Of a DNA stretch of 50,596 bases, positions 909-8,125 are shown piece by piece. Position 1 is the stretch's first letter; each line of letters starts with the position of its first letter. The position numbers and the translations under genes were made by a program. The stretch spans positions 27,816-78,411 of the forward strand of contig JAPYTO010000004.1 of NCBI GenBank assembly GCA_029941865.1. The letters run 5' to 3'. The notes beneath the pieces were generated by a model. The model made no database searches. It was not told where the DNA came from and was given only the letters and a program-made list of their open reading frames with translations. The stretch is from Fuerstiella sp. (GTDB lineage: Bacteria; Planctomycetota; Planctomycetia; Planctomycetales; Planctomycetaceae).

Positions 909-1340
909 TCAGATGCCGGACGATGGCGTCTGTTCCGGCGATTCAACGTCACCATTGTCTTCTGTGACGTTCTCTGCGGAAGACTTCAACTTTTCATCCT
1001 CGGCGAGGACGTCGCGGAGAATGCGAGCTGTCTCGATTGATTTGTGAACACCCTGATCGATCTCGAAACGCAGTTCCGGAGTGTATCGGGTTTTGACGCG
1101 ATCTGCGACTTTCGACTGCAGGAATCCTCGGGCCGAATTCAAACCGTGCAACGTCAGCGCCTCTTCCTTTTCTGTTCCCCTCACGGAGATGCGAACGGTG
1201 GCGTATCGCAGATCCGGACTCACCTGAGCTCCCAGCACCGTCACGTTGCCAATTCTGGGGTCGCGAAGTTCCTGCAGGATGGCGGTACTGACGACTTCAC
1301 GGATAACGGAAGCCACGCGGTCTGTTCTGCGTGATGACAT
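909..1340 (-). CDS. rbfA: Ribosome-binding factor A
   Basis: RbfA is a single KH-type domain protein that binds the 30S subunit near helix 1 of 16S rRNA and helps its late maturation, especially in the cold. The N-terminus (SRRTDRVASVIREVVS), ELRDPRIGNVTVLGAQVSPDLR and the segment RYTPELRFEID are classic RbfA signatures. The chosen ATG at 1340 has AGAGGA about 8 nt upstream and yields 143 residues; an ATG at 1364 and a further extension to 1424 are open but lack a ribosome-binding site. The last roughly 25 residues are acidic and extend past the family core. It lies 119 nt downstream of infB, the usual nusA-infB-rbfA order. Confidence 0.93.
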   Translation of the reverse strand: MSSRRTDRVASVIREVVSTAILQELRDPRIGNVTVLGAQVSPDLRYATVRISVRGTEKEEALTLHGLNSARGFLQSKVADRVKTRYTPELRFEIDQGVHKSIETARILRDVLAEDEKLKSSAENVTEDNGDVESPEQTPSSGI

Positions 1341-1459
1341 TGAAGATCCTCTGTTCGCCATGACTGCTGCGAAGCATATACCCCACGAAACGAGAAACAC
1401 ACGGCAACGATACGATAGTCTCAAAGCGGTCGTTCGAACCTGATCGCAGCACGGCTGCG

Positions 1460-4261
1460 TCAGGAAAGAGTCCGCTGAATTTCGTCGATGCGGAACGCCT
1501 CAAGCAGGTCACCGTCCTTAACGTCGTTGAATCCGTCCAGTCGAATACCGCACTCCATACCTTCGCGTACTTCTTTGGCGTCATCCTTCTCCCGCTTTAG
1601 TGATCCAATACGGTAGTCATTCAGAACCGTGTTGTCTCGAATCACGTGGACGCGGTTGTCCCGAGCAATGGTACCGTTAATGACCCGACAACCAGCGATC
1701 GTGCCGAACCGGCTGATGCTGAACGTCCGCAGTACGATCGCTCGACCGGTCGCAACTTCGACCTTTTCCGGACGCAGCATGCCTTCCAGTGACTGGCGGA
1801 TCTGTTCGGTGACCTCGTAGATAATATTGTATCGACGAATCTCCACGTTCTCTTTTTCCGCCAGCTTCTCGGCTCGGTCTTCTGCGATCACGTGAAACGC
1901 CACAATGATGGCTTCTGCAGCACTTGCCAGATATACGTCGCTTTCGTTGACGCCACCGACACCTTCGTGAATGATCAACACCTTGACTTCCGGGTGTTCA
2001 AACTTGCCCAACTCACCACGAATCGCTTCCAGCGAACCTGGCGTGTCGGCTTTGACAATCAGTGGCAGTTCCTGAACGCCTTCTCCTTCACGGGCAGAGT
2101 TCAGAATATCTTCCAACGTTCTTGGCTGACCGCGACGAGAGAGCACTTCCTCGCGCCCTTCGTGTTGTCTGGTTTCGGCAACCTGTCGAGCCTCTTCAAT
2201 GTCCTTCATCACAAAGAAGTGAACACCGGCTGTCGGCACTTCGTTAAGTCCGGCAACCTTGACTGGTGTCGACGGAGGGGCTTCCTTAACCTCATTGCCT
2301 TTGTCGTCATACATGGCGCGAATACGGCCATAGCTGGTGCCACAAAGGACATCGTCGCCCACCTTCAACGTGCCTTTTTGTACAATCATCCAGGCGATCA
2401 CACCACGACCCTCGTCGCGAAATGATTCCAGGCACACACCAACAGCTTCGCGATCCGGATTGGCCTTGAATTCCAGCAGTTCGGCGGTCAACTGCAGCGT
2501 CTCGACAAGATTATCCAGACCCAGACCGGTTTCACCCGAGGTCCGGATCACTTCGTATTCTCCACCCCACTCAGACGGCAGCAACTCGTGCTGAGCAAGC
2601 TGCTGCAGCACCTTCTGGTCGTCCACGTCCGGCAGATCCATCTTGTTCAGAGCAATGACGATCGGTACGCCCGCATTCTTTGCATGACTGATGCATTCTT
2701 CCGTTTGCGGCATCACACCGTCGTCGGCAGCAATGACCAGAACAATGATATCGGTGACGTTGGCACCGCGAGCTCTCATTCCACCAAAAGCAGCGTGCCC
2801 CGGCGTGTCGACAAACGTAAGATGCTGTCCTTCGTTTTCGATCTGATAGGCGGCAATATGCTGTGTAATGCCCCCCGCTTCGCCAGCTGCCACGCTGGCG
2901 TTTCTTAGATTGTCGACCAGTGTTGTCTTGCCGTGGTCAACATGACCAAGGACCGTGATGATCGGTGGACGCCACTCCAGAGTGTCTTTGTCATCATCGT
3001 GATCGAGAGATGCCAGCAGTTCTGCTTCGATATCGCGGCCACGTTTGATTTCCAGATCGACGCCAAGCTCCATGGCGACTTCCAACGCGTCTTCTTCGTT
3101 CAGTTCATCATTGATGGTCACCATGCGACCATCCTGAAAGAAGTAGCTCATGATCGACTTGGCAGGACGACCGATCGCTTCCGAAAGATTTCTCACCGTA
3201 ATCGGAAACTCGATCTGAGCAGACGTCTTGAGGTCGATCGTCGACGACCGCTTCTTCCGCCGCATTTTCTTGGCCTGCCGAGCCTCGTCCCGCGACCTCT
3301 GAAAGTCCTTCAGCAGTGACCCACGTCTGGCGCCGCCGGGCCTCCTCTTCGTTCCCTGAAGATTTTCGTCGTGATCAGCCTTTGCCTCCTTCAACTGTTG
3401 CAGTTGGACGGCCAGTGGGCTTGCACGGTCAACAATGTCGGACAGGGCGACATCGGGCTTCATCGCCTTTTCGGCAGTCTTCTTTGGCTTCGCCTTGATG
3501 GCCGGCGGCTGATAGACAGGTGGTGCGGCAACAAGCGGTCTTCCCAAAGGCTTGTCGCGTTCCTTTTCCTTCGTCCGTTCCGGCTGCAGCTCGCGGTCCT
3601 TGATGGAGCCAATCGGCTTCATCTCCCGCTGAGACGGTCGACTCATTCGCTGAATTGGCGAAGCCTGCTTCTGAGGCGTAACCGCTTCGGCAACCTCCGG
3701 AGTCGGCGTGTCCGCTTTGCTCGTCGTCACTGCCGCGGGGGCCACGGGCGCCTCCTCGACCGCTTCGGCCGGTGACTCTGATGATTCTTCGACAGCCGCA
3801 TCGGTCTCGGCTACCGTCGCTGCTGCTTCCTCAGTCGTCTCAACATCTGAATCCGTTTCTGATGCTTCAACCGCGGCCTCATTCTCCACCACCTCGAGGA
3901 CCTGCTCAGCTTCGAGGACCTGCTCAGCTTCGACGACCTCCTCAGCCTCGACAGCCTGCTCAGCTTCGAGGACCTCCTCAGCTTCGGTAGCCTGCTTTTG
4001 CATAGCCGGCATGACCCGTATGTCGCGGACCTTACCTGCATTTGAATCCCGACTGGGAGCCAGGGCTTCGGGCTGCGCGGCCTCAGGCTCGGCGTCTTTC
4101 TGGTCACGATTCTTTACGTACGCAACGACTTGATCACGTTCCTCCGGTGTCAGAGTCGCGAGCGCATTACGAAGCTGAATCCCGGCCTCATCGCAGAGAC
4201 CGATCAAAACCTTGCTGTCGAGGCCAAGTTCCCTGGCCAGAGCAAAGATACGAATCTTCAA
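1460..4261 (-). CDS. infB: Translation initiation factor IF-2
   Basis: IF-2 is the GTPase that brings fMet-tRNA to the 30S subunit and promotes 50S joining. The 933-residue protein begins with an IF2_N motif ([20 protein letters not shown]), then a long disordered acidic and Pro/Ala-rich stretch (about 55-330), a second IF2_N-like domain (about 345-405), and the G domain with GHVDHGKTT near residue 438, GGITQHI, DTPGH and NKMD. Domains II to IV follow, with the C-terminal fMet-tRNA-binding barrel ending near the stop. It is longer than E. coli IF-2 (890) because of the N-terminal expansion, which includes an 18-bp repeat. It lies in the nusA-infB-rbfA unit but 364 nt after nusA. Confidence 0.97.
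3896..3985. repeat. Five-copy 18-bp repeat inside infB
   Basis: Residues 93-122 of IF-2 are five tandem hexapeptides of the form EAE(E/Q)xV/L, encoded by an 18-bp unit with few substitutions; a sixth degenerate unit follows. The repeat lies in the non-conserved linker, so it is probably a tolerated minisatellite rather than a functional motif. Confidence 0.85.
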
Positions 4262-4625: not shown

Positions 4626-6209
4626 TTATTCACTTACCGAAGTTGTTGGTTTGTCGTCAGCATTGCCGGTGTCACTCGACTCCACAGCCGCCGCTTCGTC
4701 GTCCACAGGTTCACTGTCCGCGGCAGGTTCACTGTCCCCGGTAGACACCTCTTCGACAACATCGGCGTTTTCAACTTCTGCGGTGACGACAGAATCGCCG
4801 GCATCATTCGCCTTGGCATTCGCATCAGCAACAACTTCCTCCTTGCCCACCTCAGGTTCAGCCCCGGACGACTCGGCCTCACCTTCTCCGGCTTCGGTTT
4901 TTTCACTGCCCTCGGCAGGTGCTGAGGACTCTGCGTTTGCTTCAGCGCCTTCAGTTGTTGCGGTGTCTGACGATGTTTTCGGTGGGCTTGCTGGTGGGTT
5001 TGCTGGTGGCGGGTTCAGTTTTCTGGCGATCGCAGCTTCGCGTTCTTCCTGTTCGATTCGCAGACTTTCGACGTCTGCAAACTCAATAATTGTATCGATA
5101 TCTTCCTGCGTCAGCCCGCTCATTTCCAACAGCTCATCAGGCTCAATCACAGACAGATCGTCGAAGGTGAAAAAACCCTGTGAAACAAGGTTTTCGACAA
5201 GCTCCGACGGCATTTTGGGCACAACGCTGAATGCTTCGATTGAAATATCCAGCTGTTCGTCCAACGACTCCTGCGTCATGACGTTGATGTCCCAGCCACA
5301 CAACTTTGACGCCAGCCGCACATTCTGTCCGCGTCGCCCAATCGCCAGCGAAAGCTGGTCTTCGCGAACTAAAATAATAACCTTGCCCAGCATCGGGCAT
5401 AAGATCACGTCTTCAACTTCTGCCGGTTGCAGGGCGTTGGGAACCAGCAACTGCAGACTGTCGTTCCAGCGTACAATATCAATTCGTTCACCGTTGAGTT
5501 CCTCAACAATGCCGCGAATCCTTGCGCCTCGAACACCAACACATGCCCCCACACAATCGATCGTGGTGTCGTACGAAGACACCGCCACCTTGGATCGGTG
5601 CCCGGCTTCACGAGCGATAGACCGGGTCTCAATCACCCGATCGTTAACTTCGGGAATTTCAACTTCGAACAACCGTCGCACAAAGTCGGCATGCGTTCGG
5701 GAAAGGATCACGCGGACCCGTGACCCGGCCTTCTTCACGTCCAGGACGATTGCACGTACTCGATCCCCTACGCGATAGCTTTCTTTGTTGATCTGTTCAC
5801 TGCGAGGCAGAATGGCTTCCACCTTGCCAAGATTGACGATGACCGTGCCACGATCAACGCGGGTGACAGACCCGGTGACCAACTGGCTCTTTAAGTCAAG
5901 ATACTGGTCGTAATGGGCGTCACGCTCCGCTTCGCGGATTCGCTGAATCATCACCTGCTTGGCGGTCTGGGCTGAAATTCGCCCCAACAGATCGCCAATC
6001 AGATCCGGTTCCAGCAGCGCACCGTCGCAGGTAAGCGAAGGTTCTCCTGTGTCACGATCAATCCGAACATCAAGCACTTCTTCTTCGGAAAAATGTTTGC
6101 GGGCCGCCGAAAGGATGGCCTGCTCAATTCCCTCGAAGACGATTTCCTTGTCGATCGATTTATCACGGTGGATTGCATCAACAATCCGTTTGATTTCGTC
6201 ACCGTTCAT
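4626..6209 (-). CDS. nusA: Transcription termination/antitermination factor NusA
   Basis: NusA binds RNA polymerase and nascent RNA, modulating pausing, intrinsic termination and antitermination. The 527-residue protein has the N-terminal polymerase-binding domain (about 1-110), an S1 domain (starting near [20 protein letters not shown]), and KH1/KH2 domains with [15 protein letters not shown] and [14 protein letters not shown] helix-hairpin-like segment ([20 protein letters not shown]) follows, then a roughly 130-residue acidic Ala/Glu/Ser tail that is not part of the core family. No rimP gene precedes it, unlike the common rimP-nusA-infB order. The start ATG at 6209 lies 32 nt after a strong hairpin/T-run, so expression may be controlled by attenuation. 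Confidence 0.97.
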
Positions 6210-6241
6210 AACCCGGAACCGTTAAGTCTTTACGTTATAAC

Positions 6242-6269
6242 AAAAAAAGTGGGATAGGATCCCACTTTT
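6242..6269 (-). terminator. Intrinsic terminator in the nusA leader
   Basis: On the minus strand an 11-bp perfect stem (AAAAGTGGGAT / ATCCCACTTTT) with a 3-nt loop is followed by more T residues (seven in all). It ends about 32 nt before the nusA start codon, leaving almost no room for a separate promoter. It is therefore either the terminator of the upstream FHA/small-protein unit or an attenuator within the nusA leader. Confidence 0.85.
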
Positions 6270-6575
6270 CAGTACCAGCTCTCATGAGAACTGGCAGGCA
6301 GACCTGTCTCTCGAACGCGTGCCCCGAAAGGGGCAATACCGCGACAGAAAGAGGAATGGGGTGTCTCACATACTGTGCATTATCTCTTCCTCGGTGCCAA
6401 ACCGCCGGCCAGCAGCAGATGGCGAGTCGGACCAGTGAGTGAACAGCGACTCACAAGAACAGATTCTTGTGACTCACTCTCAATGAAACCGAACGCGGGA
6501 CGATATCGCCGCGACAGCAGACTGTCAAGCACCAAACGCCTTGTCCCGAGAATCAGGAAATTCACAGCCTGGTGC
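6270..6575 (-). promoter_or_regulatory. Structured leader region upstream of nusA
   Basis: This 300-nt stretch has no gene but contains three further hairpins: 6275-6294 (CCAG arms, loop CATG), 6321-6334 (5-bp GCCCC/GGGGC stem, 4-nt loop), and 6448-6475 (12-bp stem with one mismatch). With the terminator at 6242-6269 they would form a leader of a few hundred nucleotides if transcription starts downstream of the 65-residue protein gene. No known riboswitch class was recognised. A regulatory role is inferred from position and structure only. Confidence 0.4.
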
Positions 6576-6773
6576 CTAAGCCTGAATCGACTCCCGGGCA
6601 AGTATCCGGGCGCACTTGTAGGCGTGCTTGACGGTGAAGACGCGGGATTCGATTTGCTCCGCTGTGAAGTACCGCCCGGTGTCACTGGGTGGCAGTCCCG
6701 CCAGCGTGAGGGTCAGAGGCAGCAGGTCAAGAAACTCTTTATAGCGTCTCTGCGAATCAGACGGTTCAGCCAT
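6576..6773 (-). CDS. Conserved small protein of unknown function (65 aa)
   Basis: The start is MAEPSDSQRRYKEFLDLLPL and the protein is basic with a probable helical C-terminal half (FTVKHAYKCARILARE). It has no signal peptide, membrane segment or known domain. I recall near-identical short proteins in other planctomycetes, but this is memory, not a search. It lies 54 nt after the FHA gene on the same strand and about 370 nt before nusA, so it may be co-transcribed with either. Confidence 0.7.
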   Translation of the reverse strand: MAEPSDSQRRYKEFLDLLPLTLTLAGLPPSDTGRYFTAEQIESRVFTVKHAYKCARILARESIQA

Positions 6774-6827: not shown

Positions 6828-7778
6828 CTAACCGCCGGGTCGTCGCTGCATGTATTGCTTGATGATGGCATCAGCACCGCTGTTGGAATCCGCCTCAGCG
6901 GCTTCACCACCCTCTGATTTAGGCTTTGGCGGAGCGTCCTTCGCACCGGTTTCAGACGGATCAGGAAGGGATACGCTGGGCATCGTTGGCACGGCGGATG
7001 CTGTATCATCTGCGGGTGCTTCCAGCTGTTGCGGCATCTGCTCAGGGTACGGATACGGTGCTGGCGGTGCCTGACCGGGAAACCCCTGTGGGTACATCTG
7101 CGGTACTTGACCGGGCACCTGACCGGGCATCGGCTGATACGGATAGTTCCCGTACATCGGATACCCCGCCTGGGGCATTGCAGGATATGGCTGTCCCGGA
7201 ATAAGCGGCGACTGAGACATGACCGTTGTATCGCCTGCGCCAGGACCGGGCATTTGCGGCATCGGCGGTGCAGATGGATCTGCTGCCGCTTGTGCCGCAC
7301 TGTCTGCATTCGGGACTAGCTCTTCGGAACCAGGTTCCGTTGGAATGGCACTCAGCAACGTCGTGTCAGACCCTATCGGCATCGACAGCGGTGTCATTTC
7401 AGTAACCGTTTCTGTACCCGCCGCCACTATAGTGTCCTCGGATTTCGCAGAAATCTCCCCCGTGGTGTCGCCTGCCGCCGCTTCGTTAATCCTGACGGAG
7501 AACTCCAGACTCCCCACGAGGACTCGATCATCCGGTTGCAGAACGACTTCCTTCTTAATCCTCTCGTCGTTCACCAGTGTTCCGTTGGTACTGCCCAGAT
7601 CTCTTACGCGGACGGAGAAGTCATCTACCGTGAACACACAATGATGCCGGCTGACTAACTCGCTGTTGGGACGTAGTTGACAATCCTGCTCCCGCCCAAT
7701 CAGAAACTTCTGGCGGTTGAGCGGGATCACCTGCCCTGCGTGTTTTCCGCCAATTACGTGAAGTTCAGCGTTGATCAT
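6828..7778 (-). CDS. FHA-domain protein with Pro/Gly/Tyr-rich linker
   Basis: An N-terminal FHA domain (about 1-95) binds phosphothreonine peptides; the motifs GREQDCQLR, SRHHC and GSTNGTLVN are intact, including the phosphothreonine-contacting Arg, Ser and Asn. The chosen ATG gives MINAELHVIGG, the usual FHA beginning, with AGGA about 10 nt upstream; a longer frame to 7832 adds an unlikely extension. The middle is Thr/Ala-rich, then a Pro/Gln/Tyr/Gly-rich stretch (such as QPMPGQVPGQVPQMYP), and the protein ends with a short basic helix (IIKQYMQRRPGG). It is probably cytosolic and a reader of Ser/Thr kinase signals; two such kinases are encoded in this window. Partner unknown. Confidence 0.85.
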   Translation of the reverse strand: MINAELHVIGGKHAGQVIPLNRQKFLIGREQDCQLRPNSELVSRHHCVFTVDDFSVRVRDLGSTNGTLVNDERIKKEVVLQPDDRVLVGSLEFSVRINEAAAGDTTGEISAKSEDTIVAAGTETVTEMTPLSMPIGSDTTLLSAIPTEPGSEELVPNADSAAQAAADPSAPPMPQMPGPGAGDTTVMSQSPLIPGQPYPAMPQAGYPMYGNYPYQPMPGQVPGQVPQMYPQGFPGQAPPAPYPYPEQMPQQLEAPADDTASAVPTMPSVSLPDPSETGAKDAPPKPKSEGGEAAEADSNSGADAIIKQYMQRRPGG

Positions 7779-8125
7779 ATTCTTTGTCCTACTCAACGGT
7801 GAAAACCCGTAACTGAGTCGCGAATGCGCCATCGGGATAACTCACCTGTTTCACAAAATGCAGTGAGTGCTGGGATGCACCTCCACTAGAACGGGGGCCT
7901 AATCACAAGCCAGAGAACAGAGAACGTTCGACAGTGGTGTGAAGTGCCCGGAACCGGGAAAGACGAGATATGAGACAATAAAGAGAAAGGTAGCCAGTAT
8001 TTCATCGGAGTGGCAGTCACATGTAAAGACCGTGAATTATCCGTTCTGGGAGATTTTGCATAATTTGTATAATTCAAAGAATCCGCAGAATTCTCATTTG
8101 CACTGAAGTGGGCATGTGTTAACGT
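7779..8125. other. 347-nt intergenic region, AT-rich
   Basis: The interval separates the FHA gene and the lipoate-ligase gene, both on the minus strand. It is richer in A/T than its surroundings, particularly near 8050-8100, which would suit a promoter for the FHA gene, but no convincing -35/-10 pair was found. Open frames here have no recognisable features. Confidence 0.4.

Follow-up and report, generated by a model that had tools for sequence, protein, structure and literature searches.

The genes nusA, infB and rbfA lie, as judged by domain matches, on the minus strand of the window, by which is meant the whole 50.6-kb stretch of DNA from Fuerstiella sp. that was analysed. The features of the operon, of the leader that precedes it and of the genes beyond are as follows.

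909–1424, minus strand: rbfA (RBFA domain; start codon uncertain)
1460–4261, minus strand: infB, encoding IF2, the next gene after nusA (IF-2, IF2_N and GTP_EFTU domains; start codon uncertain)
4626–6209, minus strand: nusA (NusA_N, S1 and KH_5 domains; the A of its ATG is position 6209)
6242–6234, minus strand: possible weak extended −10, TGTTATAAC, overlapping the T-run of the terminator
6242–6270, minus strand: intrinsic terminator of the rimP-leader type (scan, folds, conservation and covariation alignment)
6274–6295, minus strand: pre-terminator hairpin (compensatory changes)
6321–6334, minus strand: hairpin GCCCC-UUUC-GGGGC (RNA folds)
6380–6366, minus strand: minimal upstream open reading frame (uORF), AUG CAC AGU AUG UGA, reading MHSM and stop (translation; position, stop-codon and held-out tests)
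6387–6392, minus strand: Shine-Dalgarno sequence GAGGAA of the uORF, with 7 nt between AGGA and AUG
6400–6492, minus strand: structured 5' part of the leader (RNA folds; a long hairpin at about 6480–6434)
6528–6500, minus strand: sigma70-like promoter, TTGACA-17-TATCGT (pattern scan; transcription start inferred near 6493)
6576–6773, upstream of the leader: conserved gene of 65 amino acids without a Pfam match
6828–7832, upstream of the leader: FHA-domain gene

The operon begins with nusA, rimP being absent directly before it, and a search with RimP_N gave no match in the window's own genome (90.5% complete), compared with matches in 10 of 14 control genomes; to go by these searches, RimP may be missing in the window's lineage. 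A tRNA gene in the leader can be set aside, as the sole ARAGORN call, a 99-nt tRNA-Thr at 5513–5611, lies inside nusA and is probably spurious. Known RNA families gave no match at gathering score over the window and five matches in the leader region, all far below gathering scores, and in the leaders of eight relatives there was no match at E values up to 1. The leader itself has a single match in its own genome. Of 80 loci, 18 have a relative of the 65-amino-acid gene no more than 2500 nt upstream of nusA; in one of them (L046) the relative is partial and lies 2360 nt from nusA.

Comparison was made across 97 distinct leaders of Planctomycetaceae including that of the window, drawn from 80 nusA loci, further relatives and added stretches. 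Fourteen loci were judged to be repeats of records already in the set and were excluded on that ground, as were the duplicates L016 and L026. In the loci of other families of the class, compared further below, the nusA start codon was set by rule, none being found for L128. Two of the records (L041 and L045) are titled Candidatus Kuenenia stuttgartiensis; their nusA groups with Planctomycetaceae, and the titles may be wrong.

The preliminary description of this DNA had pointed to an 11-bp perfect stem with a T-run about 32 nt before nusA, and this is indeed what is found: the stem AAAAGTGGGAT/ATCCCACTTTT with a CCT loop occupies 6269–6245 of the minus strand, is lengthened by the scan to 12 pairs (6270–6244), and is followed by a T-run ending at 6242, which leaves 32 nt to the nusA ATG. 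Within the window the terminator pattern is at chance level, with one found against 1.7 and 0.6 expected in two scans, and a pattern match alone is insufficient; the terminator is taken to be real because it is conserved in relatives. Such conservation, on which the earlier reading had been made to depend, was checked, and the terminator is kept in 96 of the 97 leaders by the loose pattern together with eight loci whose terminator ends were set by hand. Over the last 700 nt the strict pattern alone matches 81 of 97 (mean of 0.1 in 20 shuffles) and the loose pattern 91 of 97 (mean of 0.8 in 20 shuffles); the reverse strand is unsuitable as a control here, because a stem flanked by A- and T-runs looks the same from either strand. 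The stem motif is GGGAT..ATCCC in the window and GGGAC..GCCC, GGGAC..TCCC, GGGCA..CCC and others in relatives, and the 5' arm, AAAAGTGGGA, is invariant in 20 aligned sequences of the window's wider clade. A search of the 8.0-Mb genome (90.5% complete) for the exact hairpin pattern AAGTGGGA-N2..9-TCCCACTTTT gives a single hit. The distance from terminator to nusA, 32 nt in the window, runs from 20 to 403 nt in the family, with a median of 72. By eye, nusA lacks a clear Shine-Dalgarno sequence in those leaders whose terminator stops about 30 nt short of it (6210–6235 in the window, and relatives L040–L056), and the uORF has one.

More hairpins had also been described upstream of the terminator, and folds place them at about 6295–6274, 6334–6321 and 6480–6434. 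The one next to the terminator shows two-sided compensatory changes at 7 of 7 consensus pairs in the 20 sequences of the wider clade, each pair being broken or gapped in 1–6 of the 20. These sequences are those kept out of 27 in the clade, with L005, L041, L043 and L056 omitted for long loops, L047 and L053 as near-copies and L037 for no good reason. As a whole the leaders are more structured than their shuffles (mean z −2.99 over 94 leaders), as is the 5' part (mean z −1.78 over 93 leaders, and −2.96 in the window), and the 367-nt stretch before the window's nusA folds at z −4.3 against 100 shuffles.

The stretch upstream of the terminator had been called non-coding, a label that can no longer be kept, as it holds the promoter-like site at 6528–6500 and the conserved short ORF at 6380–6366. 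Of the 97 leaders, 94 have a TTGAC..TANNNT match 180–620 nt ahead of the terminator end (20 shuffles: mean 1.4, maximum 6), and from the inferred start to the terminator the window's leader measures about 250 nt. Since this conserved promoter-like site lies upstream of a conserved terminator, read-through would be required to reach nusA, just as was first supposed. The companion claim, that there is no promoter after the terminator, is borne out for the family at large, where a sigma70-like match follows the terminator in only 3 of 97 leaders (L070, L074 and L086), and has to be qualified for the window, L032 and L033, which have in common the extended −10 TGTTATAAC. One such sequence occurs in the 50.6-kb window against 0.2 expected, and it decays in the other aligned relatives; it may mark a lineage-specific start after the terminator.

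Between the promoter and the terminator, the alignment of leaders reveals a conserved block in which a Shine-Dalgarno-like motif is followed by an AUG and then, at once or after a few codons, by a stop. The preliminary description had passed over this element. The window's uORF has AUG-UGA (6371–6366) as its last sense codon and stop, and in other genera the ORF is reduced to a bare AUG-UAG, AUG-UGA or AUG-UAA. Pure start-stops make up 52 of the 96 leaders in which a uORF length was assigned; seven uORFs have two codons, seven have three, 29 have four and one has five, the multi-codon ones having been entered by hand and the others taken from a window of 105–235 nt. In 68 of 96 leaders an ATG-stop lies 105–175 nt ahead of the terminator end, a count that includes four-codon ORFs ending in AUG-stop, as compared to 3.2 ± 1.9 (maximum 9) in 200 dinucleotide shuffles; seven other 70-nt bins hold one in 1–4 of 94–96 leaders, and the reverse complement in 2 of 96. 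When the ORF is allowed up to five codons and is required to have a Shine-Dalgarno sequence, 80 of 96 leaders qualify, with 5.0 ± 2.2 (maximum 11) among shuffles. Of 94 leaders, 93 have a Shine-Dalgarno-like motif of at least four bases ahead of the uORF, a count without a control of its own (the joint test of ORF and Shine-Dalgarno has one), and the gap is 6–9 nt in 90 of the 93.

Within the 70-nt bin, ATG-TRR is completed as TAG 34 times, TGA 27 times, TAA 10 times and TGG once, the pattern to be expected from a stop signal and not from a mere T-purine-purine motif. Parsimony on a nusA protein tree of 94 (L112–L114 omitted, and without a shuffled-label control) counts 22 changes of stop type and 12 of codon number, and after thinning to nusA identity below 80% an ATG-stop is still present in 19 of 31 representatives. 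The distance from AUG to terminator arm has a median of 113 nt (interquartile range 106–124, range 88–197, n = 92), and that from promoter to AUG varies more (median 117, interquartile range 102–164, range 53–349, n = 92); L071 and L095, which have no recognised arm, are absent from the Shine-Dalgarno and distance counts as well as from the ribosome-blocked folds discussed below.

A held-out sample was drawn from 120 family genomes, which yielded 60 upstream stretches, 31 already in the first sample and 29 new; with the duplicate L220 removed and L139 added, 29 held-out leaders were examined using the patterns and windows of the first sample unchanged. Among the 24 with a recognised terminator, an ATG-stop falls in the same bin in 21 (0.8 expected), a uORF with a Shine-Dalgarno score of at least 4 is present in 19, and one or the other in 23. 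As these genomes come from the same family, the check tests the rule and not independent origin. Of the five leaders without a recognised terminator, two (L198 and L214) have an ATG-TAG, and the other three (L210, L219 and L223) have, by eye, a nine-codon ORF behind GGAGG. Altogether, 124 of 126 family leaders could be given a uORF of between one and nine codons, under rules looser than those of the statistical tests. The two leaders without one, L112 and L213, belong to a single genus (g27); L112 has no recognised promoter or terminator, and L213 keeps the terminator. Together with relatives outside the family whose terminators also stand without a uORF, L213 implies that the terminator can work alone. 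The inner codons of the uORF vary and its length runs from one to nine codons, so that it has neither regulatory codons nor a conserved arrest peptide. On the strength of its position, stop codons and ribosome-binding motif, the uORF is in all likelihood translated.

The region around the uORF was searched for a structure that might link it to the terminator. In the window's wider clade, a stretch resembling CCAUUUC or CCCAUU that follows the uORF had by eye seemed a partner of the terminator arm; it was rejected, its complementarity being at chance against shuffles. Pairing of the terminator's 5' arm with the stretch after the uORF gave mean z values of +0.50, −0.06 and +0.21 in groups of 9, 19 and 66, and because complementarity is no better than chance in the three groups, no antiterminator pairing is claimed. 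Of 28 leaders from the wider clade, 15 fold with such a partner at +17 to +26 once a ribosome is blocked in, and 3 do so when unblocked; over 94 leaders the blocked folds have no partner in common. No covarying structure came out around the start-stop when one clade of 15 sequences was folded with RNAalifold, the flank from AUG+6 to +60 is no more structured than shuffles (mean z −0.20), and the Shine-Dalgarno–AUG region is generally no more open than with shuffled flanks and is less open in one clade.

The interpretation towards which these observations lean, by a modest degree, is that the nusA-infB leader would be a transcription attenuator that combines a NusA-type terminator with a uORF reporting on translation initiation. 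RNA polymerase would start at the promoter-like site at 6528–6500 and read through the terminator at 6270–6242 to reach nusA, and NusA, the first product of the operon, probably acts on this leader terminator, where it would favour termination. On its way the polymerase would transcribe a ribosome-binding site and, behind it, the short ORF, which has between one and nine codons and is most commonly a bare start-stop; a ribosome initiating there would terminate at once or nearly so. With termination so close at hand, the uORF would report initiation (the 30S subunit, IF2 and initiator tRNA), termination and recycling, and hardly elongation or amino-acid supply. Occupancy of the uORF, some 113 nt before the terminator arm, would then set read-through and link NusA and IF2 output to the current state of initiation; as the operon encodes IF2, feedback through initiation would be the most natural reading. 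An effect of the uORF on read-through is considered slightly better than evenly balanced, and we infer both the quantity sensed and the role of NusA.

A rather unlikely account, which nonetheless deserves consideration, is that terminator and uORF are independent of one another, NusA alone setting termination while the uORF's ribosome does no more than protect the leader RNA or keep Rho away from it. It fits with the failure of the searches above to find an antiterminator and with the presence of such terminators without a uORF in one genus (L213) and outside the family. It sits poorly with the rather fixed distance between AUG and terminator arm (interquartile range 106–124) and with retention of the uORF in 124 of 126 family leaders, and simple protection leaves its minimal length unexplained. 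Were the AUG-stop instead a motif that is recognised as RNA and never translated, its likeness to an ORF being fortuitous, the conservation of its flanks within clades would be accounted for, and a single clade with one type of stop would be uninformative on this point. Across clades, however, TAG, TGA and TAA interchange and TGG turns up once, and other clades have 2–5 or 9 in-frame codons behind a Shine-Dalgarno-like motif at the usual spacing, which makes a recognition motif highly improbable.

The discrete unit from promoter to terminator could also be viewed as a small-RNA gene that happens to stand before nusA, with the promoter of nusA after the terminator, and the variable distance from terminator to nusA (20 to 403 nt) and the extended −10 TGTTATAAC in the window would agree with such an arrangement. 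This is quite improbable, as at least 94 of the 97 leaders have the promoter-like site and the terminator upstream of nusA and in its orientation (nusA-upstream regions being those examined), the window's leader has but one match in its own genome, the terminator is of a type already familiar from rimP-nusA-infB leaders (PMC2965389), the −10 is not conserved, and a sigma70-like match follows the terminator in 3 of 97. The slightest credence is given to control of nusA translation by re-initiation after the uORF in place of control over transcriptional read-through. Short uORFs can act in this manner elsewhere (PMC5972666); in the window, however, the uORF stop is separated from nusA by 156 nt, in which two or more hairpins stand besides the terminator, and across the family the 20–403 nt between terminator and nusA are not kept constant.

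With the attenuator reading preferred, a further step would be to regard the Planctomycetaceae leader as a dedicated gauge of initiation that feeds back, through a NusA-responsive terminator, on the operon for NusA and IF2; this is put forward tentatively, as somewhat less than an even prospect. If true, the gauge would isolate initiation, termination and recycling from elongation, a conserved bacterial attenuator would have a one-codon ORF as its sensor in most lineages, and a signal would be supplied for the rimP-leader class of terminators. The proposed matching of NusA and IF2 to the demand for initiation is testable by two point changes, one in the start codon and one in the stop codon. 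The conservation of the uORF suggests that the shortest possible ORF can be under selective retention in a bacterial leader.

Attenuation in which a ribosome acts as the sensor has long been familiar from the trp and his leader peptides, where a uORF stands before a terminator or switch. The same arrangement, with the uORF upstream of the switch and the ribosome as the sensor, is reported for an antibiotic-sensing uORF (PMC12121999). The planctomycete leader resembles these systems in having, upstream of a terminator, a uORF that by its sequence signature is probably translated, and differs in that the ORF is most often a single codon, the peptide is not conserved and no antiterminator was found.

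The terminator, for its part, belongs to a class that is already described. Terminators before rimP-nusA-infB were reported by Naville and Gautheret in 2010 as the rimP-leader, which its describers regarded as the most ubiquitous transcription attenuator, and in their account the general form showed no antiterminator or larger conserved element, with NusA proposed as the agent (PMC2965389). Both in that account and here, a G-rich 5' arm, a C-rich 3' arm and a U-run lie just before nusA-infB, the stem sequence is conserved, the motif is not found elsewhere in the genome, no antiterminator was found and NusA is the proposed agent. Further marks of the class are a GGGc(...)gCCC stem, a terminator 4–130 nt before the first gene, and rimP as that gene. 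In contrast, there is no rimP before nusA in the window, and the planctomycete leader has the minimal uORF and, in the window's wider clade, the covarying pre-terminator hairpin. The Rfam model for rimP (RF01770) gave no match at E values up to 10 in the window's own genome; it rises above its cut-off in only 1 of 14 control genomes, from which the model appears to be narrow.

In E. coli, NusA was reported to repress the metY-nusA-infB operon (Plumbridge, Nakamura and colleagues, 1985), and the two systems share the same genes and have terminators upstream of the operon. They differ in what stands at that place, which is an initiator-tRNA gene and rimP in E. coli and, in the planctomycetes, a start-stop ORF with rimP absent from the site. 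A eukaryotic start-stop uORF is that of Arabidopsis NIP5;1, which is reported to act by stalling, re-initiation and mRNA decay (PMC5972666), and which is alike in placing an AUG directly or almost directly before a stop in a regulatory leader. Start-stop sites have also been seen by ribosome profiling in C. jejuni and, by way of a citation there, in E. coli (PMC11955535); those of C. jejuni, apparently translated, are internal and out of frame, and do not make up a family-wide attenuator leader. Among the titles and abstract openings found by searching the open literature, none describes a start-stop uORF for planctomycetes or for the leader of either nusA or rimP.

Beyond the family, 49 loci were compared (22 from the class and 27 from the phylum), of which 14 have a terminator recognised by the pattern. 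An ATG-stop falls in the same distance bin in two of those 14 (L124 and L163), both with a Shine-Dalgarno score of 3, and these are too few to be called either background or homology; L129, from the same family as L124, is without one. In seven of the eight phylum loci with both promoter and terminator matches, the two starts lie within about 165 nt of each other, which makes for a much shorter leader, and L136 has a three-codon ORF 66 nt before its terminator. From these counts, in a thin sample, the start-stop leader looks like a feature of Planctomycetaceae.

Several of the outside loci have arrangements of their own. In two members of one genus (L152 and L155), GGAAGGGTTGCTGCCGATGATGTGAGG, a Shine-Dalgarno-like motif followed by ATG-ATG-TGA, stands upstream of nusA inside a possible small hairpin, with no recognised terminator. 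The distant L147 has a four-codon ORF, ATG CGT TAT CCT TAA, upstream of nusA between a promoter-like site and a GTGGGG..CCCCAC terminator. These three loci may, from the look of their sequences, hold something similar to the start-stop leader. Finally, the nusA leaders of L130, L132, L133 and L135, all of one family (f3), share the element AACGATGC(A/T)CCGGC.. soon after a promoter-like stretch. The start of this element can pair, by eye, with a stretch about 100 nt later, and the element also opens the frame ATG CAC CGG or ATG CTC CGG; it is possibly another nusA leader RNA.
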